Source: Chitinophaga pinensis
GTDB taxonomy: Bacteria; Bacteroidota; Bacteroidia; Chitinophagales; Chitinophagaceae
Length of the DNA: 64,000 nt
Direction: 5' to 3'
Assembly (NCBI GenBank): GCA_945878115.1
Contig: CAMDVD010000007.1
Location: forward strand, 1-64,000
The translations under genes and the position numbers were made by a program. Shown here piece by piece: positions 985-51,243 of this stretch (position 1 is its first letter; each line of letters starts with the position of its first letter). Below the pieces are notes generated by a model. The model worked only from the letters and a program-made list of their open reading frames with translations, searched no databases and was not told the origin of the DNA.

Positions 985-2379
985 TTACTTTACATAAACT
1001 CCATCTTTCCATTCTCCAACATATTTATCTCCGCTTACAGTTGTAAAAGTTCCTTGACCACTTTTTATGCCATCTTTCCATTCTCCAACATATTTAGCTC
1101 CGTTTGAATATGTAGTAGTTCCTTGACCATTCATATTGTCATCTTTAAATTCTCCTACATATTTATTTCCATTTGAAAATGTAACAGTTCCAAGACCATT
1201 TTTTTTGCCATCTTTATATTCTCCGACATATTTATCTCCGTTTGAATATGTGTAAGTTCCAAGACCATTTTTTTTGCCATCTTTATATTCTCCGACATAT
1301 TTATCTCCATTTGCAGATGTCATAGTTCCTTGACCGTTTTGTTTGCCATCTTTCCATTCTCCTACATATTTATCTCCGTTCGCAGATGTATAAGTTCCTT
1401 GACCATTCATATTGCCATCTTTAAATTCTCCTACATATTTCTCCCCATTTATAATTGTAAAAGTCCCTAAACCATTGAATCTGTTATCTTTAAATTCTCC
1501 TACATATTTATTTCCATTTGAAAATGTCAAAGTTCCTTGACCATTTGATTTGCCATCTTTCACTTCTCCAACATATTTATCTCCGTTTGCAGTTGTCAAA
1601 GTTCCTTGACCATTCATATTGTGATCTTTAAATTCTCCTACATATTTATCTCCATTTGAAGATGTCAAAGTTCCATGACCATTTGATTTGCCATCTTTCC
1701 ATTCTCCAACATATTTAGCTCCGATTACAGTTGTGGTAGTTCCTTGACCATTCATAATTCCATCTTTCCATTCTCCTACATATTTATCTCCATTTGAATA
1801 TGTCATAGTTCCTTGACCATTCATATCGCCATCTTTAAATTCTCCTACATATCTATCTCCGTTTGAAAATGTAAAAGTTCCATATCCTTGAATACAGTTA
1901 CCAATAACACAACCGAAAGAATTTATGTAAGTACTGCCATTACCAATAATTAATGAATTGGTTGAATAATCAAACGAAAATTTACCAAGTTTACTTAGTG
2001 CTGATTGCCCTAATAATATTGGGGCATCATTGTTATGAATTATAGTCGCTTCTACATTCTTTATTACATACCCACCTATGTTTATTGAATCAAGAATAAT
2101 CTTTGTACCTTCTTGGATTTCTCCATTTGCTATTTGATAGTATTCTGTGCCTAAAATATTATCCTTTGATAAATAGTTGTTTTTTAGCATAAATATTGCT
2201 TCAGCTAGAGAAATTGTAACATCACTTGCTCCACTATCAAAGACAAATTTCATATTCAAGCCGTTTACCTGACAAGGAATATAATAAACGCCATTTCTTT
2301 TTTCTAAAATAACTCTGGATTGAGCACTTGCATTTGTAATGAGAATTATTAGAAGAAGAAAAGTGATGATATTTTTCAT
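985..2379 (-). CDS. secreted retropepsin-like aspartic protease fused to about 13 MORN repeats
   Basis: Signal peptide MKNIITFLLLIILITNASAQ; FDSGASDVTIS active-site-like motif (clan AA aspartic protease); 23-aa GQGTxTxxNGDKYVGEFKDGxxN repeats. Confidence 0.8.
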   Translation of the reverse strand: MKNIITFLLLIILITNASAQSRVILEKRNGVYYIPCQVNGLNMKFVFDSGASDVTISLAEAIFMLKNNYLSKDNILGTEYYQIANGEIQEGTKIILDSINIGGYVIKNVEATIIHNNDAPILLGQSALSKLGKFSFDYSTNSLIIGNGSTYINSFGCVIGNCIQGYGTFTFSNGDRYVGEFKDGDMNGQGTMTYSNGDKYVGEWKDGIMNGQGTTTTVIGAKYVGEWKDGKSNGHGTLTSSNGDKYVGEFKDHNMNGQGTLTTANGDKYVGEVKDGKSNGQGTLTFSNGNKYVGEFKDNRFNGLGTFTIINGEKYVGEFKDGNMNGQGTYTSANGDKYVGEWKDGKQNGQGTMTSANGDKYVGEYKDGKKNGLGTYTYSNGDKYVGEYKDGKKNGLGTVTFSNGNKYVGEFKDDNMNGQGTTTYSNGAKYVGEWKDGIKSGQGTFTTVSGDKYVGEWKDGVYVK

Positions 2380-2511
2380 GGTATTTTTTTAATGCTCTAA
2401 AAGGTCGTTCTAAGAAAAAACCACCGTTTGCATCACACAAATCTAAGAAAAACTATCATTCGAATCACTGAACCGCCAATTTCTTGTAGGTGCTGTTATT
2501 GCGCGTTATTC

Positions 2512-3846
2512 TTACTTTACATAAACTCCATCTTTCCATTCTCCAACAAATTTATTTCCATTTAGAGATGTCATAGTTCCTTGACCATTTTGTATGTTAT
2601 CTTTAAATTCTCCAACATATTTATCTCCATTTGAAAATGTATAAGTTCCTTGACCATTTTTTTTGTTATCTTTATATTCTCCGACATATTTAGCTCCGCT
2701 TGAATATGTCAAAGTTCCTTGACCATTCATATTGCCATCTTTAAATTCTCCAACCAACTTATCTCCGTTTGAAAATGTAAAAGTTCCTAGACCATTCATT
2801 TTGTCATCTTTAAATTCTCCAACATATTTATCTCCATTTGAAAATGTATAAGTTCCTTGACCATTTTTTTTGTTATCTTTATATTCTCCGACATATTTAG
2901 CTCCGCTTGAATATGTCAAAGTTGCTTGACCATTCATATTGCCATCTTTAAATTCTCCTACATATTTATCTCCATTTGAAGATGTAAAAGTTCCTTGACC
3001 ATTTTGTTTGTCATCTTTCCATACTCCAACATATTTATTTCCATTTGCAGTTGTCAAAGTTCCTAGACCATTCATTTTGTCATCTTTAAATTCTCCAACC
3101 AACTTATCTCCGTTTGAAAATGTAAAAGTTCCTAGACCATTTTGTTTGCCATCTTTCATTTCTCCAACATATTTATCTCCATTTGAAAATGTAACAGTTC
3201 CTTGACCATTTTGTTCGCCATATTTATATTCTCCTACATATTTATCTCCGTTTGCAATTGTCAAAGTTCCTTGACCATCTGGTTTGCCATCTTTAAATTC
3301 TCCAACATATTTATCTCCGTTTGCTTTTGTCAAAGTTCCTTGACCATTCATATTGCCATCTTTAAATTCTCCTACATATTTCTCTCCATTTATAATTGTA
3401 AAAGTCCCTAAACCATTGAATTTGTTATCTTTAAATTCTCCTACATATTTATCTCCGCTGACAGTTGTCAAAGTTCCTTGACCATTCATATTGTCATCTT
3501 TAAATTCTCCTACATATTTATTTCCATTTATAATTGTAAAAGTCCCTAAACCATTGAATTTGTTATCTATAAATTCTCCTACATAATTATCTCCGTTTGC
3601 AGTTGTAAAAGTTCCTTGACCATTTTGTTTGTCATCTTTCCATACTCCAACATATTTATTTCCATTTGCAGTTGTCAAAGTTCCTTGACCATTTGATTTG
3701 CCATCTTTCATTTCTCCAACATATTTATCTCCGCTTACAGTTGTAAAAGTTCCTTGACCATTTCTTTTTTCTGAAATAACCTTAGTTTGAGCGTTTGCAT
3801 TTATAATTAGAATTATAAGAAGTAGAAAAGTGATTAAATTTTTCAT
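2512..3846 (-). CDS. secreted MORN-repeat protein (about 18 repeats), protease-less paralog
   Basis: Near-identical signal peptide followed directly by 23-aa MORN repeats; C-terminus EWKDGVYVK identical to the neighbour. Confidence 0.8.
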   Translation of the reverse strand: MKNLITFLLLIILIINANAQTKVISEKRNGQGTFTTVSGDKYVGEMKDGKSNGQGTLTTANGNKYVGVWKDDKQNGQGTFTTANGDNYVGEFIDNKFNGLGTFTIINGNKYVGEFKDDNMNGQGTLTTVSGDKYVGEFKDNKFNGLGTFTIINGEKYVGEFKDGNMNGQGTLTKANGDKYVGEFKDGKPDGQGTLTIANGDKYVGEYKYGEQNGQGTVTFSNGDKYVGEMKDGKQNGLGTFTFSNGDKLVGEFKDDKMNGLGTLTTANGNKYVGVWKDDKQNGQGTFTSSNGDKYVGEFKDGNMNGQATLTYSSGAKYVGEYKDNKKNGQGTYTFSNGDKYVGEFKDDKMNGLGTFTFSNGDKLVGEFKDGNMNGQGTLTYSSGAKYVGEYKDNKKNGQGTYTFSNGDKYVGEFKDNIQNGQGTMTSLNGNKFVGEWKDGVYVK

Positions 3847-14145: not shown

Positions 14146-15477
14146 ATGTCCAATGCGCTACAAGCAATCTCACCTATTGATGGTCGTTACCAAAAACAGT
14201 TGTCTTCCTTATCTGATTATTTTTCGGAGTACGCACTCATCCGCTATCGTACCTATGTAGAAATAGAATATTTTATTGCGTTGAGTGAAGCAAAATTTTT
14301 TACGCTAACCGTTGCTCAAAAAAAAGCTTTACGAAAAATTCACACAGAATTTTCTGTAGAAGATGCGCAACAAATTAAAGACATTGAAAAAATTACAAAC
14401 CATGATGTAAAAGCAGTCGAATATTTTTTGAAAGAAAAATTGACTGTATTAAAAATGAGTGCTAGCCAAGAATGGATACATTTTGGTTTAACCTCGCAAG
14501 ACATTAATAATACGGCCATTCCACTACTTTGGAAAGATGCACTACAACAAGAATATATACCACAAATTCAATCCATTATCCATACCTTAAAAGGTATGGC
14601 TAAGCAATGGGACAAGCTTCCTTTACTGGCTCGCACACACGGACAAGTTGCATCGCCTACACGCTTGGGTAAAGAAATGATGGTGTTTGTAGAGCGACTT
14701 GAAAATCAACTAAGATTATTAAACGCCATTCCTTTTGCTGCAAAATTTGGTGGTGCTACTGGTAATTTTAATGCACACTATGTAACCTATCCAAAAACAG
14801 ATTGGAAAAAATTTGCCAATCAATTTGTCAATCAAACCCTAGGTTTGAAGCGCATGCAATACACCACACAAATAGAACATTACGATTCATTGGCTGCGCA
14901 ATTCGATGCTTTAAAAAGAATCAATACCATACTCATTGATTATAGTCGCGATATTTGGTCCTACATTTCTATGGATTATTTTAAACAAAAAGTGAACGCC
15001 AATGAAGTAGGTAGTTCGGCCATGCCACATAAAGTAAACCCGATTGATTTTGAAAATGCGGAAGGGAATTTTGGTATCGCCAATGCCTTATTTGAACATT
15101 TATCTGCTAAGCTTCCCATCTCTCGTTTACAACGCGACCTTACCGATTCTACGGTACTTCGAAATATGGGTGTACCATTAGCGCATACCATTTTGGGTTT
15201 TAAATCCCTTACTAAAGGCATGCAAAAATTAATCGTCAATACGGATAAATTACAAAGCGATTTAGAACAAAATTGGGTAGTAATTGCAGAAGCGATTCAA
15301 ACCATTTTACGACGCGAAAATTTTCCAAAACCTTATGAAGCATTGAAAGCATTGACACGAGGTTCTGATAAAATAAATAAAGCAAGTATGCATATATTTA
15401 TTGATTCCTTAAACATAAAAGACGCTGTAAAAAAAGAATTGAAAAAAATTACGCCGCATAATTATACGGGGAAATAG
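14146..15477 (+). CDS. purB: adenylosuccinate lyase
   Basis: SPIDGRYQKQLSSLSDYFSEYALIRYR; GSSAMPHKVNPIDFENAEGN signature. Confidence 0.97.
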   Translation: MSNALQAISPIDGRYQKQLSSLSDYFSEYALIRYRTYVEIEYFIALSEAKFFTLTVAQKKALRKIHTEFSVEDAQQIKDIEKITNHDVKAVEYFLKEKLTVLKMSASQEWIHFGLTSQDINNTAIPLLWKDALQQEYIPQIQSIIHTLKGMAKQWDKLPLLARTHGQVASPTRLGKEMMVFVERLENQLRLLNAIPFAAKFGGATGNFNAHYVTYPKTDWKKFANQFVNQTLGLKRMQYTTQIEHYDSLAAQFDALKRINTILIDYSRDIWSYISMDYFKQKVNANEVGSSAMPHKVNPIDFENAEGNFGIANALFEHLSAKLPISRLQRDLTDSTVLRNMGVPLAHTILGFKSLTKGMQKLIVNTDKLQSDLEQNWVVIAEAIQTILRRENFPKPYEALKALTRGSDKINKASMHIFIDSLNIKDAVKKELKKITPHNYTGK

Positions 15478-15478
15478 T

Positions 15479-15500
15479 TTGTTGGTGATAACACCAACAA
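15479..15500. repeat. solitary family-2 REP palindrome TTGTTGGTGATAACACCAACAA
   Basis: Perfect 9-bp stem with ATAA loop, identical to the palindromes around the RAYT at 49920-50429; immediately 3' of the purB stop. Confidence 0.85.
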
Positions 15501-15540
15501 AGGCCGAATTCTAATGATGGCAGAGACAATTACTGGCGCT

Positions 15541-15950
15541 GGAATGAGGCGTTGCTTTTGTGCGAAGGCTTCCTATGCCTTGTCTATTTTAGGAAACATA
15601 AACAATTAATCTACACATACTGTCGCAGGAATGAGGCGTTGCTGTTGTGCGATGGCTTCCTGTGCCTTGTCCATTTTAAGAAACATAAACAATTAATCTA
15701 CACATACTGGCGCAGGAATGAGGCGTTGCTTTTGTGCGAAGGCTTCCTGTGCCTTGTCTATTTTAGGAAACATAAACGATTAATCTACACATACTGGCGC
15801 AGGAATGAGGCGTTGCCTTTGTGCGATGGCTTCTTGTGTCTTGTCTATTTAAGAAACATAAACAATTAATCTACACATACTGGCGCAGGAATGAGGCGTT
15901 GCCTTTGTGCGATGGCTTCCTGTGCCTTGTCTATTTTAGGAAACATAAAC
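15541..15950 (+). repeat. direct tandem array of 87-bp REP units (family 1), about 4.7 copies
   Basis: GGAATGAGGCGTTGC...GGCTTCCTGTGCCTTGTC... begins at 15541, 15628, 15715, 15802 and 15888 (periods 87, 87, 87, 86). Confidence 0.95.
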
Positions 15951-16499
15951 ATTCAATCTTTTAATCGGCACTTTACCTTCCGTGTCAAAATAATAATCTC
16001 TAGCACTTGAATAAATATATTCTTCAGACTTATCTACAAAACCTGATACCACTGGATTATTGTGAATATAATCTAAACGCTGCCAAGCAATTTCTATTTT
16101 ATCTAAAACAATTGGATGACTATCCTGAATCCAAAATTGAAAATTAGCATTGTCATTATTTGTTTTTCCAGCTTGTTCCATCATAGCTAACATCCATTCC
16201 CTTCTGCTTTCTTGTTTATTATTTCGTATAGCATACTTCAATTTCTCTGATGTATGTTTCTTCATATCTCTAACTATATCTTCTAATTTATTTTTATTGC
16301 TTCCAATTATCATATGCACATGGCTAGTCATGATACACCAACCATAAATTTCCAACCCTTTATTTTTAATACAATATTTCCAACTGTCGATTAATATTTC
16401 TTTATATTCATTTCTAATAAAAACATCTATCCAGTTTATCACTGTAAATGTTACAAAGTAGATTTCATTTTGATCTCTGAATTTATATTTTGTGCTCAT
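15936..16499 (-). mobile_element. REP-associated tyrosine transposase (RAYT, Y1_Tnp/TnpA-REP-like), family 1
   Basis: IYFVTFTVINWIDVF...KGLEIYGWCIMTSHVHMIIGS (HxH motif)...RLDYIHNNPVVSGFV...YSSARDYY; flanked on both sides by REP hairpins. Confidence 0.92.
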
Positions 16500-16534
16500 G
16501 CAATTGCAAGTTAATTGTTTTTCATAATGGGCAG

Positions 16535-16576
16535 GCACAGGAAGCCAACGCTCTTAGCAACGCCTCATTCCTGCGC
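16535..16576 (-). repeat. family-1 REP hairpin upstream of RAYT, inverted relative to the 15541 array
   Basis: GCACAGGAA ... TTCCTGCGC stem. Confidence 0.85.
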
Positions 16577-16593
16577 CAGAATAAGATTTTATT

Positions 16594-16702
16594 TTGATCT
16601 CTGAATTTTGTTTTTGTGTTCATGCACTAGCAAGTTAATTGTTTTTCATAATGGGCAGGCACAGGAAGCCAGCGCTCTTGGCAACACCTCATTCCTGCGC
16701 CA
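16594..16702 (-). repeat. second copy of RAYT 5' end plus REP hairpin
   Basis: TTTTGATCTCTGAATTTT...CATGCACTAGCAAGTTAATTGTTTTTCATAATGGGCAGGCACAGGAAGCC parallels 16467-16576; hairpin at 16659-16700. Confidence 0.85.
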
Positions 16703-16768
16703 GTAAAGAAAGAGAAAGGGAAAGAGAATGAGAAAGAATTTTATAGATATCTAAACTTTCCCTCTTAC

Positions 16769-26914: not shown

Positions 26915-27600
26915 CTTGCCGAAGAGTCTCCGCTTTATTCCTCGCAGAGTCTCCGCCTCGGGACTCTGCGATTTATTTTTTACGACTACCCATGTTGAAA
27001 TACAAAGCATTCATTTTGAACTGAAAACTAACTTTCTCTAATCAACCCGCAGAGTGCCTCACAAACTTTAAGCCGCATACATGATTTGTACAGAGGACAC
27101 ATCTGCGGAGATGGAAAAACTTACAACTTACAACTTATGCCTTACGACTACTTCGTAACCCGCAGAGTGCCTCACAAACTTTAAGCCGCATACATGATTT
27201 GTGCGGAGGACACATCTTCGGAGATGGAATGGAAGACTTACAACTTATGCCTTACGCCTTACGACTACTTCGAAACCCGCAGAGTGCCTCACAAACATTA
27301 TACTCGCATACATGATTAGTGCATAGAACAAATCTGCGGAGATGGAAAAGACTTATGCCTTACGACTTATAACTTTTATTCCTCGCAGAGTCTCCGCCTC
27401 GAGACTCTGCGATTTATTTTTTACGACTACCCATGTTGAAATACACAGGATTCATTTTGAACTGAAAACTAACTTTCACCAATCAACCCGCAGAGTGCCT
27501 CACAAACATTTAAATCGTATACATAATTAGTGCAGAGGACACATCTGCGGAGATGGAAAAGACTTATGCCTTACGCCTTACAACTTACGCCTAAAATTGA
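26915..27600. repeat. intergenic cluster of hairpin repeats
   Basis: CGCAGAGTC...GACTCTGCG at 26943-26970 and 27384-27411; CCGCAGAGTGCCTC...TCTGCGG units beginning at 27047, 27153, 27277 and 27488. Confidence 0.85.
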
Positions 27601-48782: not shown

Positions 48783-49556
48783 ATGAAGCAATATCTGATT
48801 TGTTTTTTATTCGCCTTTACTGCAACAAGCTTGTATGCCCAACCTCCTTTGGAAACTAAATTTCCAGACTATGCCTTTTTAAATTATCAAATGACTTTTG
48901 AAAAAGTAAAAACAGCGGCTGCAAAAAGTGATACCGTAGTCAAAAAATTATTTGCTGCTAAAGGAATTAAATATCCATGTAAAAATATTTTATGGCGTGC
49001 TTTTAAAGGTCCTAGTGAAATGGAATTGTGGGCACGTAATTCAATCAATGATACTTTTGTCCTCATTAAAAATTATCAAATTTGTGCCTTGTCTGGCATA
49101 CTCGGACCCAAGCGTTGGGAAGGCGACAAGCAAGTACCAGAAGGCTTTTATTTCCTATCTGATTTCAAACCCAATAGTGCGTATTATCTTTCTATGTTGG
49201 TTGGCTATCCGAATTATTCCGATTTAATACAAGGCAACAAAGAAAAACCTGGTGGGGATATTTATATTCATGGTGCTTGTATGACCATTGGTTGTATGCC
49301 CATGACAGATGAACTTATTGGCGAATTGTATATCATCAGTATGAATGCAAGAGCTTATGGACAATTGAATATTCCAGTGCAGATTTACCCAATTCGCTAT
49401 ACCCAAAAATCAATAGATTTTTTAGGTCGTGAATATAAAAATGAAGCTGAAAAACAAAAGTTTTGGGTCAATATCAAACGAGCTTATGATTACTTTGAAG
49501 CTACCCACAGAACCTTACCTGTGATGTATGATAGCAAGGGGAATTATGCGTTTTAG
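48783..49556 (+). CDS. L,D-transpeptidase (YkuD-type catalytic domain)
   Basis: Signal peptide; GGDIYIHGACMTIGCMPMTDELIGELY (HG...S/TxGC-type motif). Confidence 0.88.
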   Translation: MKQYLICFLFAFTATSLYAQPPLETKFPDYAFLNYQMTFEKVKTAAAKSDTVVKKLFAAKGIKYPCKNILWRAFKGPSEMELWARNSINDTFVLIKNYQICALSGILGPKRWEGDKQVPEGFYFLSDFKPNSAYYLSMLVGYPNYSDLIQGNKEKPGGDIYIHGACMTIGCMPMTDELIGELYIISMNARAYGQLNIPVQIYPIRYTQKSIDFLGREYKNEAEKQKFWVNIKRAYDYFEATHRTLPVMYDSKGNYAF

Positions 49557-49577
49557 GGAATCTTTTGGTGATATATA

Positions 49578-49599
49578 TTGTTGGTGATAACACCAACAA
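49578..49599 (+). repeat. family-2 REP palindrome TTGTTGGTGATAACACCAACAA
   Basis: Perfect 9-bp stem, followed by TGGCG. Confidence 0.9.
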
Positions 49600-49791
49600 T
49601 GGCGTGATGCGTTTTAAAAAGCCTTTTGGTGGAATGTATAAGTGAATAACAATGGATTAAATTATAAACTTATAATTGTAGTAAATAAAATACTGTAACC
49701 TTATTTTAGGACGATACATACTTTTGTAAACCAAGAATAGAACTAAAACTTATTTTAGGCTTAAATTAAAAACTGTAAACTTATTTTAGGA

Positions 49792-49830
49792 CGCTACCGG
49801 TAGCGCCATTGTTGGTGTTATCACCAACAA
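49792..49830 (-). repeat. family-2 REP in reverse orientation, abutting CGCTACCGGTAGCG
   Basis: TTGTTGGTGTTATCACCAACAA at 49809-49830, preceded by CGCCA (reverse of TGGCG) and a perfect 14-bp palindrome at 49792-49805. Confidence 0.85.
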
Positions 49831-49846
49831 TTTATATTTTTCACCA

Positions 49847-49902
49847 TTGATGTTATCACCAACAATTCTTTTATTTTTAAACTTTAGTGTTATCGTCAAC
49901 AA
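49847..49902 (-). repeat. two degenerate family-2 REP copies
   Basis: TTGATGTTATCACCAACAA (49847-49865) and TTTAGTGTTATCGTCAACAA (about 49884-49902). Confidence 0.6.
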
Positions 49903-49919
49903 TTTTAATATTTTTTCTA

Positions 49920-50429
49920 ATGAATTTCAGTACAACTTACGCCGAGTTTTTAACGATCACAATTTTGCAATGGAAAAATCTTTTGAAACCAGAAAAGTAT
50001 AAAGAGATATTGGTAAATTCATTGTCTTATTTTGTAAAAGAAGAAAGAGCAAAAATATTTTCTTTTTGTATTATGGATAATCATATTCACTTGATTTGGC
50101 AAGCTGAACAAGATTATACATCGCGCGACAATCAACATAGTTTTACAAAATTTACTGCTCAACAAATAAAATTCGATCTGCAAAAAAATCATCCTAAAGT
50201 TTTAGAAATATTCCGAGTAAATGCCGCAGACCGGCTCTATCAATTTTGGGAACGAAACCCATTGCCAATTATATTATATAACGAAAATGTTTTTTTACAA
50301 AAGCTTGAATACATACATAGCAATCCAGTGAAAGCAGGTTTATGTTTGTTACCAGAAGATTATTACTATTCATCCGCATCCTTTTATTTGAATGGCGATA
50401 ATAGGTTTGACTTCTTGACTCATTATTAA
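49920..50429 (+). mobile_element. REP-associated tyrosine transposase (RAYT, Y1_Tnp-like), family 2
   Basis: YAEFLTITILQWKNLL...AKIFSFCIMDNHIHLIWQ (HxH)...KLEYIHSNPVKAGLC...YYYSSASFY; start moved to the ATG at 49920; flanked by family-2 REPs. Confidence 0.9.
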
Positions 50430-50730
50430 TCTTTGGTGATATAAATTGTTGGTGATAACACCAACAATGGCGGAATACGCTATACCCAAAAAGCAATAGA
50501 TTTTTTAGGTCGTGAATATAAAAATGAAGCGGAAAAACAAAAGTTTTGGGTCAATATCAAACGAGCTTATGATTACTTTGAAGCTACACACAGGACCTTA
50601 CCTGTGATGTATGATAGCAAAGGGAATTATGCGTTTTAAGGAAATCTTTGGTGATATAAGTTTGACTTCTTGACTCATTATTAATCTTTGGTGATATATA
50701 TTGTTGGTGATAACACCAACAATGGCGGAA
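50405..50730 (+). repeat. 255-bp-period duplication: RAYT 3' tail plus REP plus L,D-transpeptidase 3' end copy
   Basis: GTTTGACTTCTTGACTCATTATTAATCTTTGGTGATATA...TTGTTGGTGATAACACCAACAATGGCGGAA at 50405 and 50660; REPs 50446-50467 and 50701-50722. Confidence 0.9.
50473..50653 (+). pseudogene. duplicated 3' end of the L,D-transpeptidase gene
   Basis: CGCTATACCCAAAAAGCAATAGATTTTTTAGG...GGGAATTATGCGTTTTAAGGAAATCTTTGGTGATATA nearly identical to 49392-49573. Confidence 0.92.
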
Positions 50731-51243
50731 AAGAATAACGTAAAGGAAAGAATATTATTTGATTTTGACAAATTTTAATCCATATTCAGGCTGTTCGATA
50801 TGTTAGGCTCTGCGCATGTCGAACGGATGATAATGAAGGTTCTGTGAACCTTATCCTAAATCTTTCATAGTGTCTTATTCTAAAATCGGGTTACGTGATT
50901 TGCTATTTTTACCAACATTTTTTATTTCTTTCTGTTGGTTCGGAGAACCAAATTTATTTGTCGTTCGACATGCCGCTAAGTGAATGTGGCGAACAGCGTG
51001 GAGATGGTTTATATTACAGGCAAAGCCTGCGAAGAACATAGCGCTTGCGAAGGCAAAGCCTTCGAAGAGTGAAGTTAAGAAAGTCTTGTAAATCACCGAC
51101 ACTATCCGGCATTCGGCATAACAGTTTGTGTCGAATGCCGCATTATGTCGCACATTGTGAAGAGTTTCTTGATTTGAGAAGTATTTTGTGTGATGAGGTT
51201 GGTTAAACTGTTTGTTTAGTATAATCAAGAAAATATATAACTT

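Follow-up and report, generated by a model that had tools for sequence, protein, structure and literature searches.

The window, by which we mean the whole 64,000-nucleotide stretch of DNA analysed here, belongs to a draft genome of 3.58 Mb in 101 contigs (G000) and carries a RAYT gene surrounded by REP hairpins, with purB (14146-15477; ASL_C domain) as its neighbor on one side and a DUF5723 gene on the other. The features of this locus (locus 1) are listed below; G013 is the draft genome of a sister species.

15478-15501, no strand assigned: palindrome belonging to the REP family of locus 2 (below), the other such family in G000, between purB and the array
15502-15530, no strand assigned: 29-bp filler from this palindrome to the array
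15531-15959, plus strand: 3'-side array with five REP hairpins; each of its 87- or 86-bp units includes some 25 nt from the 3' end of the RAYT gene
15534-15580, plus strand: outermost 3'-side REP hairpin (CTGGCGC...), the putative left terminus of the mobile unit
15936-16499, minus strand: RAYT / TnpA_REP gene, 187 aa, ATG at 16499, with HUH (H-V-H) and the Y1 motif WQ..YIHNNP
16460-16579, minus strand: inner 5'-side module, the first RAYT codons plus a REP in opposite orientation
16584-16703, minus strand: outer 5'-side module, a second RAYT 5' end (MNTKTKFRDQNK..) plus a REP; the putative right terminus of the mobile unit
15531-16706, no strand assigned: inferred mobile unit, which aligns end to end with G013:C58:14208-15380 (beside iscU) and is missing at purB of G013

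An earlier note on this DNA had described a Y1 transposase bracketed by hairpins of opposite orientation, and the open reading frame that it named is confirmed. The direct 87-bp array that it placed at 15541-15950 with about 4.7 copies is also present, although its start had to be moved to 15531; Tandem Repeats Finder gives a period of 87, 4.9 copies and a 92% match, with one unit of 86 bp. Read on the gene strand, each unit runs from some 25 nt of gene 3' end, stop codon included (AGATTRATTGTTTATGTTTCYTAA), through the hairpin to a short tail, and the innermost unit overlaps the RAYT's own stop codon. The two inverted hairpins on the other side (16533-16579 and 16657-16703) and the second RAYT 5' end are likewise as the note had them: the two modules are 120 bp each and 92% identical to one another, and the outer copy, ATG AAC ACA AAA ACA AAA TTC AGA GAT CAA AAT AAA, is translated as MNTKTKFRDQNK. 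A 21-mer core of the hairpin has 7 matches in the window and none in 100 dinucleotide shuffles, which excludes chance, and the hairpin folds as single-stranded DNA with z = -3.5; no Rfam match to a structured RNA was found at the locus. A 22-mer is found 22 times in G000 at up to 3 mismatches, more than half of the matches lying inside two array loci, as compared to 0 for the reversed control. The genome search proposed in the note turned up further copies, the absence of which would have counted against its reading, among them the C45 array, C66, C13, C6, C1 and others. Elsewhere in the window, positions 27044-27370 hold a 113-bp unit that is repeated in tandem (2.8 copies, 85% match) and contains CCCGCAGAGTGCC.

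The protein scores 87.6 bits against the NCBIfam model NF047646 (REP_Tyr_transpos; cutoff 80) and 25.8 bits against transpos_IS200 (cutoff 55), and on these scores we rejected the IS200/IS605 TnpA identity that the earlier note had set against its own reading of the gene as a RAYT. The NF047646 cutoff is exceeded by 7 of 8 further RAYTs tested, and a profile of 20 relatives, among which H60, H62, Y144 and N148 are invariant (HVH and YIHNNP, which fit the HUH and Y-x-x-x-N-P motifs of RAYTs), has TnpA_REP 4ER8 as its sole PDB match (E <= 0.01). The nearest named relative, at 93% amino acid identity, is encoded by the metagenome-assembled genome Bacteroidetes bacterium RH-23may17-290. Subclass 2.6 of the RAYTs, which is group 5 of Bertels, is reported to be found mainly in Bacteroidetes and to have atypical flanking structures (PMC6006769); the window protein, with WQRLDYIHNNP, carries the WQ and YIH[QN]NP pattern of this group, and the Bacteroidota setting that the note had considered unusual is therefore that of a described subclass. 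Inverted REP flanks, an arrangement already established for RAYTs (PMC2817692), were detectable at 51 of the 70 RAYT segments examined. The REPs have no GTAG-type 5' head, the hairpins starting TACTGGCGC / TTCTGGCGC, which does not exclude a RAYT because atypical structures are reported for subclass 2.6. Between the window RAYT and its G013 counterpart dN is 0.029 and dS 0.385, and the resulting dN/dS of about 0.07 indicates strong purifying selection, i.e., a protein that has been maintained.

Gene ends and REPs in tandem

The counterpart of the window unit in G013 also has five hairpins on the 3' side and two modules on the 5' side, and this permits the repeats to be compared between the two lineages. 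Each of the five spacers of G000 contains GTTTATGTTTC, as does the G000 gene end, and those of G013 contain the G013-type GTATC; the second G013 unit, moreover, is nearly a duplicate of the gene-adjacent one in spacer and hairpin alike. Since the spacers are matched to the resident gene in each lineage, the array has been renewed from, or homogenized with, its own gene end, and on this comparison the renewal or homogenization of the 3' array postdates the species split. The junction of the 5' duplication is identical in both genomes, and that duplication is the older. Similar tandem modules occur at other RAYTs (G000:C8, 157 bp; G012:C245, on both sides; G055:C7, 152 bp), and the comparison shows gene-end and REP modules that have been duplicated in tandem at both element ends. 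The repeated copying that the note had suggested draws support from spacers that follow the resident gene end in both species and from the near-duplicate unit in G013.

Hairpins favor slippage, and it is possible, though less likely than not, that slippage during replication or unequal exchange at the hairpins produced the arrays with no need of the transposase, the abutting gene ends being carried along. The units are head-to-tail and of constant length, as slippage would leave them, and one array of 107-bp REP units in G000 (C66; L033 1583-1966) lies in an examined stretch of 4 kb that contains no RAYT. On the other hand, tandem gene-end and REP modules recur at both ends of the element and at independent RAYTs, long host duplications are found at sequence other than REPs, and slippage, which may well explain an expansion from two units to five, gives no first duplication of DNA that is not yet repeated. 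We picture instead an insertion-type event at or beside a resident REP that would duplicate the adjacent gene end together with the REP and so seed an array, to be extended afterwards by slippage or unequal exchange.

Host duplications beside the elements

Direct repeats of host DNA border a number of the elements. One in G000 (C28) lies between copies of a 228-bp repeat from the 5' region of an aspartokinase-type gene, a segment that is single in G013 (C32), where the element is absent and the site is empty. At G042:C160, 134 bp of the neighboring gene's 3' end are duplicated, and the C8 element of G000 has a host duplication of 53 bp. A second RAYT in the window (locus 2) is similarly placed:

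49391-49575, no strand assigned: left copy in a 185-bp duplication of host DNA (from the 3' end of a YkuD-like gene)
49887-50429, plus strand: second RAYT, 79.4 bits against NF047646, just below the cutoff of 80
50474-50658, no strand assigned: right copy in this duplication, 94.6% identical to the left

The right copy is followed by another RAYT 3' end and REP (50649-50731). The palindrome family of locus 2 (49391-50731; TTGTTGGTGATAACACCAACAA) is present at about 30 places in each of G000 and G013.

A same-strand repeat between the two flanks was found for 8 of the 51 elements with detectable inverted ends, as compared to 1 of 385 mismatched flank pairs, 1 of 43 distant pairs from the same locus and 12 of 358 positions chosen arbitrarily in the window, the majority of the 12 lying in or beside the window's 69-bp repeat region at 1001-3763. 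The latter consists of long 69-bp arrays with a 207-bp higher order and probably encodes a repeat protein. Three of the eight repeats (G008:C17, G027:C39 and G037:C216) are situated among REPs or RAYT fragments, and for this reason we rejected the view that all eight are target duplications; as C8 and its G013 orthologue C93 represent one site, four independent sites with host sequence remain. The majority of the 51 elements have no flank duplication, and no long host duplication was found for the purB insertion at locus 1. The comparison shows that several insertions have direct host duplications of 53-228 bp at their borders; long target duplications may be a regular feature of the group.

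The duplicated host segments could have a different origin, as earlier tandem duplications with the element at their junction or as the product of later template switching at the hairpins. Locus 2, with REP and RAYT 3'-end copies between and beside its duplicated host segments, is complex in a way that suits such an account. The right copy, in contrast, begins within 0-14 bp of the element end in 7 of the 8 cases and the left copy ends 4-5 bp away in 3 of the 8, and the C28 segment is single where the element is absent. Taken together, we find this origin rather unlikely, with template switching at stalled forks a serious alternative as the source of the duplications.

Different sites of the unit in related genomes

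The genomes compared are drafts, mostly metagenomic or of no stated origin, and empty sites among them are few. The purB site is filled in G000 and empty in G013, where 4 bp separate the matched flanks and GGGGAAATAG runs directly into the downstream flank. The G013 counterpart, arrays included, lies instead beside iscU; it is 93% identical to the window element and aligns with it from outer hairpin to outer hairpin over 1179 columns (88.7%). What G000 has at iscU is no more than a relic, in which the 5' end of a RAYT is fused to four hairpins, and the orthologous relic with the identical deletion junction is also present in G013, which makes the relic older and iscU an old site. A single simple jump linking the purB element to the iscU relic was dropped for the same reason. 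The RAYT dS is slightly above that of the neighboring genes (mostly 0.11-0.32), so that the copies at purB and at iscU may be older than the separation of the two species; the values fit a divergence of the two copies at or somewhat before that separation. The insertion at purB was not a simple one, given the palindrome of a foreign family and the 29-bp filler beside it, the filler having no second copy in G000 or G013. The different sites of the unit in the two species are a well-supported sign of movement, which may have run in either direction. Near iscU in G013 (C58; L068 4579-6092), two ORFs of 236 and 178 aa with no Pfam match stand beside REP relics and are absent at the corresponding place in G000; they are possible genes carried between REPs.

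Other genomes of the order contain dispersed, near-identical copies in which exactly REP-RAYT-REP is shared and the flanks are unrelated. Such copies are found within G008 (C47/C48; 781 bp, 94.5%), within G056 (C44/C6; 680 bp, 86.5%) and within G060 (about 690 bp, 92%), as well as between G007 and G012 (681 bp, 86.8%), and the number of search matches per genome ranges from 0 to 14, fragments counted. The C8 element of G000 (L031 1574-2499) and C93 of G013 are 100% identical over 926 bp comprising a REP module, the RAYT and a REP, as compared to flanks that differ by about 6%, with mismatches restarting just beyond the outer hairpins; these alignments probably reflect a recent transfer or conversion confined to the element, cross-assembly being the other candidate. 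An empty site in G000 for the G013:C19 element was sought, and the left flank proved not to be colinear. G002 has a non-autonomous, REPIN-like derivative (L224, G002:C10:53107-53262), a 157-bp inverted REP pair that encloses a RAYT 5' end. A RAYT with in-frame stops, still flanked by inverted repeats, is found in both G000 (C24, L037) and G013 (C77, L070).

It is well supported, from these different sites in sister species and the dispersed near-identical copies elsewhere, that the REP-RAYT-REP unit, arrays included, is still mobile, and we consider it probable that locus 1 is a REPtron of Bacteroidota subclass 2.6 / group 5 that acts as an autonomous transposable element with its outermost REPs as ends. 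An ordinary domesticated REPtron, in which the RAYT is static, only REPs are mobilized, and gene loss together with homologous recombination among REP arrays accounts for what differs between the species, would agree with the published view of RAYTs (PMC6006769, PMC8266576, PMC8049555), with the strong purifying selection and with an iscU relic old enough to have its junction in both species. We think it improbable, as the purB site of G013 has no REP through which recombination could act, the flanks of paired copies within a genome are unrelated outside the REPs, and the empty C28 site disfavors it again; a domesticated, non-transposing REPtron is immobile as a unit and single-copy, and the elements described here are neither. 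It is more improbable still that the differences are artefacts of assembly or binning at repeats, for all that the genomes are drafts, several RAYTs lie at contig ends and the identical C8/C93 block could be cross-assembled, since in G000 and G013 alike the purB and iscU contigs run on into orthologous genes to either side and the same architecture is repeated in many unrelated assemblies.

Proposed strand mechanism and relation to known systems

Known Y1 enzymes cut one strand beside a hairpin, and TnpA_REP of E. coli leaves an inverted REP alone unprocessed (PMC8266576). In the strand mechanism of movement that we infer, at each end the enzyme would recognize the REP on one of the strands and, because the ends are inverted, each end would be its substrate on a different strand. 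With one REP exposed per strand, cleavage and joining would involve both strands at spaced positions in the target; one nick in each target strand followed by fill-in would yield a direct duplication of the DNA between the nicks, the length of which would equal the distance between them, in keeping with the variable 53-228 bp. Internal deletion would leave non-autonomous short REP pairs such as that of G002. Tentatively, and with less confidence than in the mobility of the unit, we suggest that the group-5 RAYTs of Bacteroidota may constitute a family of Y1 transposons with palindromic terminal inverted repeats, two-strand transposition, variable target duplications of about 50-230 bp, and gene-end and REP arrays that result from action on their own ends. 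No HUH Y1 element of that description was found in the literature surveyed.

Several known systems resemble the window element in part. RAYTs of subclass 2.6 / group 5 share with it the HUH/Y1 protein of about 180 aa, the WQ and YIH[QN]NP motifs, atypical hairpins and copies elsewhere in the genome; they are described as low-copy and immobile as a unit (PMC6006769), whereas the unit of the window type moves and borders long host duplications. TIRtrons, with their TIRYT genes (Rocco et al. 2013, PMC3733652), likewise have a RAYT-like gene inside long terminal inverted repeats, some of them self-complementary; movement of the unit and target duplications are unreported in the part of that paper drawn on here, and the window ends differ from what it describes in being palindromic and tandemly multiplied together with gene ends. 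The RAYTs of P. fluorescens SBW25 (PMC3116915) also stand beside REPIN clusters, in which REP units and their flanking sequence are repeated in ordered tandem; in the window, however, what is repeated as flank is, on either side, the end of the transposase gene itself, and the array has no REPIN doublets. IS200/IS605 elements (IS608, ISDra2) belong to the same Y1 HUH chemistry family and have hairpin ends, but they are without terminal inverted repeats and larger target duplications (PMC2817692), in which the RAYT elements fail to conform to them, and the window protein scores under the IS200 cutoff. The E. coli REPtron, whose TnpA_REP (4ER8) is of the same protein superfamily as the window RAYT, has GTAG-headed REPs, BIMEs and no evidence of gene mobility (PMC8266576), in contrast to window REPs without the GTAG head.

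REPtrons have been described as not transposing as a unit (PMC6006769), and no report of a mobile RAYT was found in the recent literature, in a search covering few subscription journals and preprints. For this Bacteroidota group the published immobility of RAYTs is contradicted by the genome comparisons; the earlier note, supported as to the copying of gene ends, had understated the case in that whole-unit mobility and the long host duplications were missed. The RAYTs are put forward as the first case of bacterial transposases that became domesticated, present in single copy, inherited vertically and with REPs that move instead of the gene. A group in which the unit is still mobile would, if true, stand as the missing intermediate on the way from IS elements to domesticated RAYTs, and long target duplications made by a Y1 enzyme would, if true, be mechanistically unexpected. 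The group offers insertions, empty sites, relics and short derivatives alike, so that the mechanism of dissemination could be studied directly, and the tandem gene-end and REP modules provide a concrete record of how REP arrays begin.
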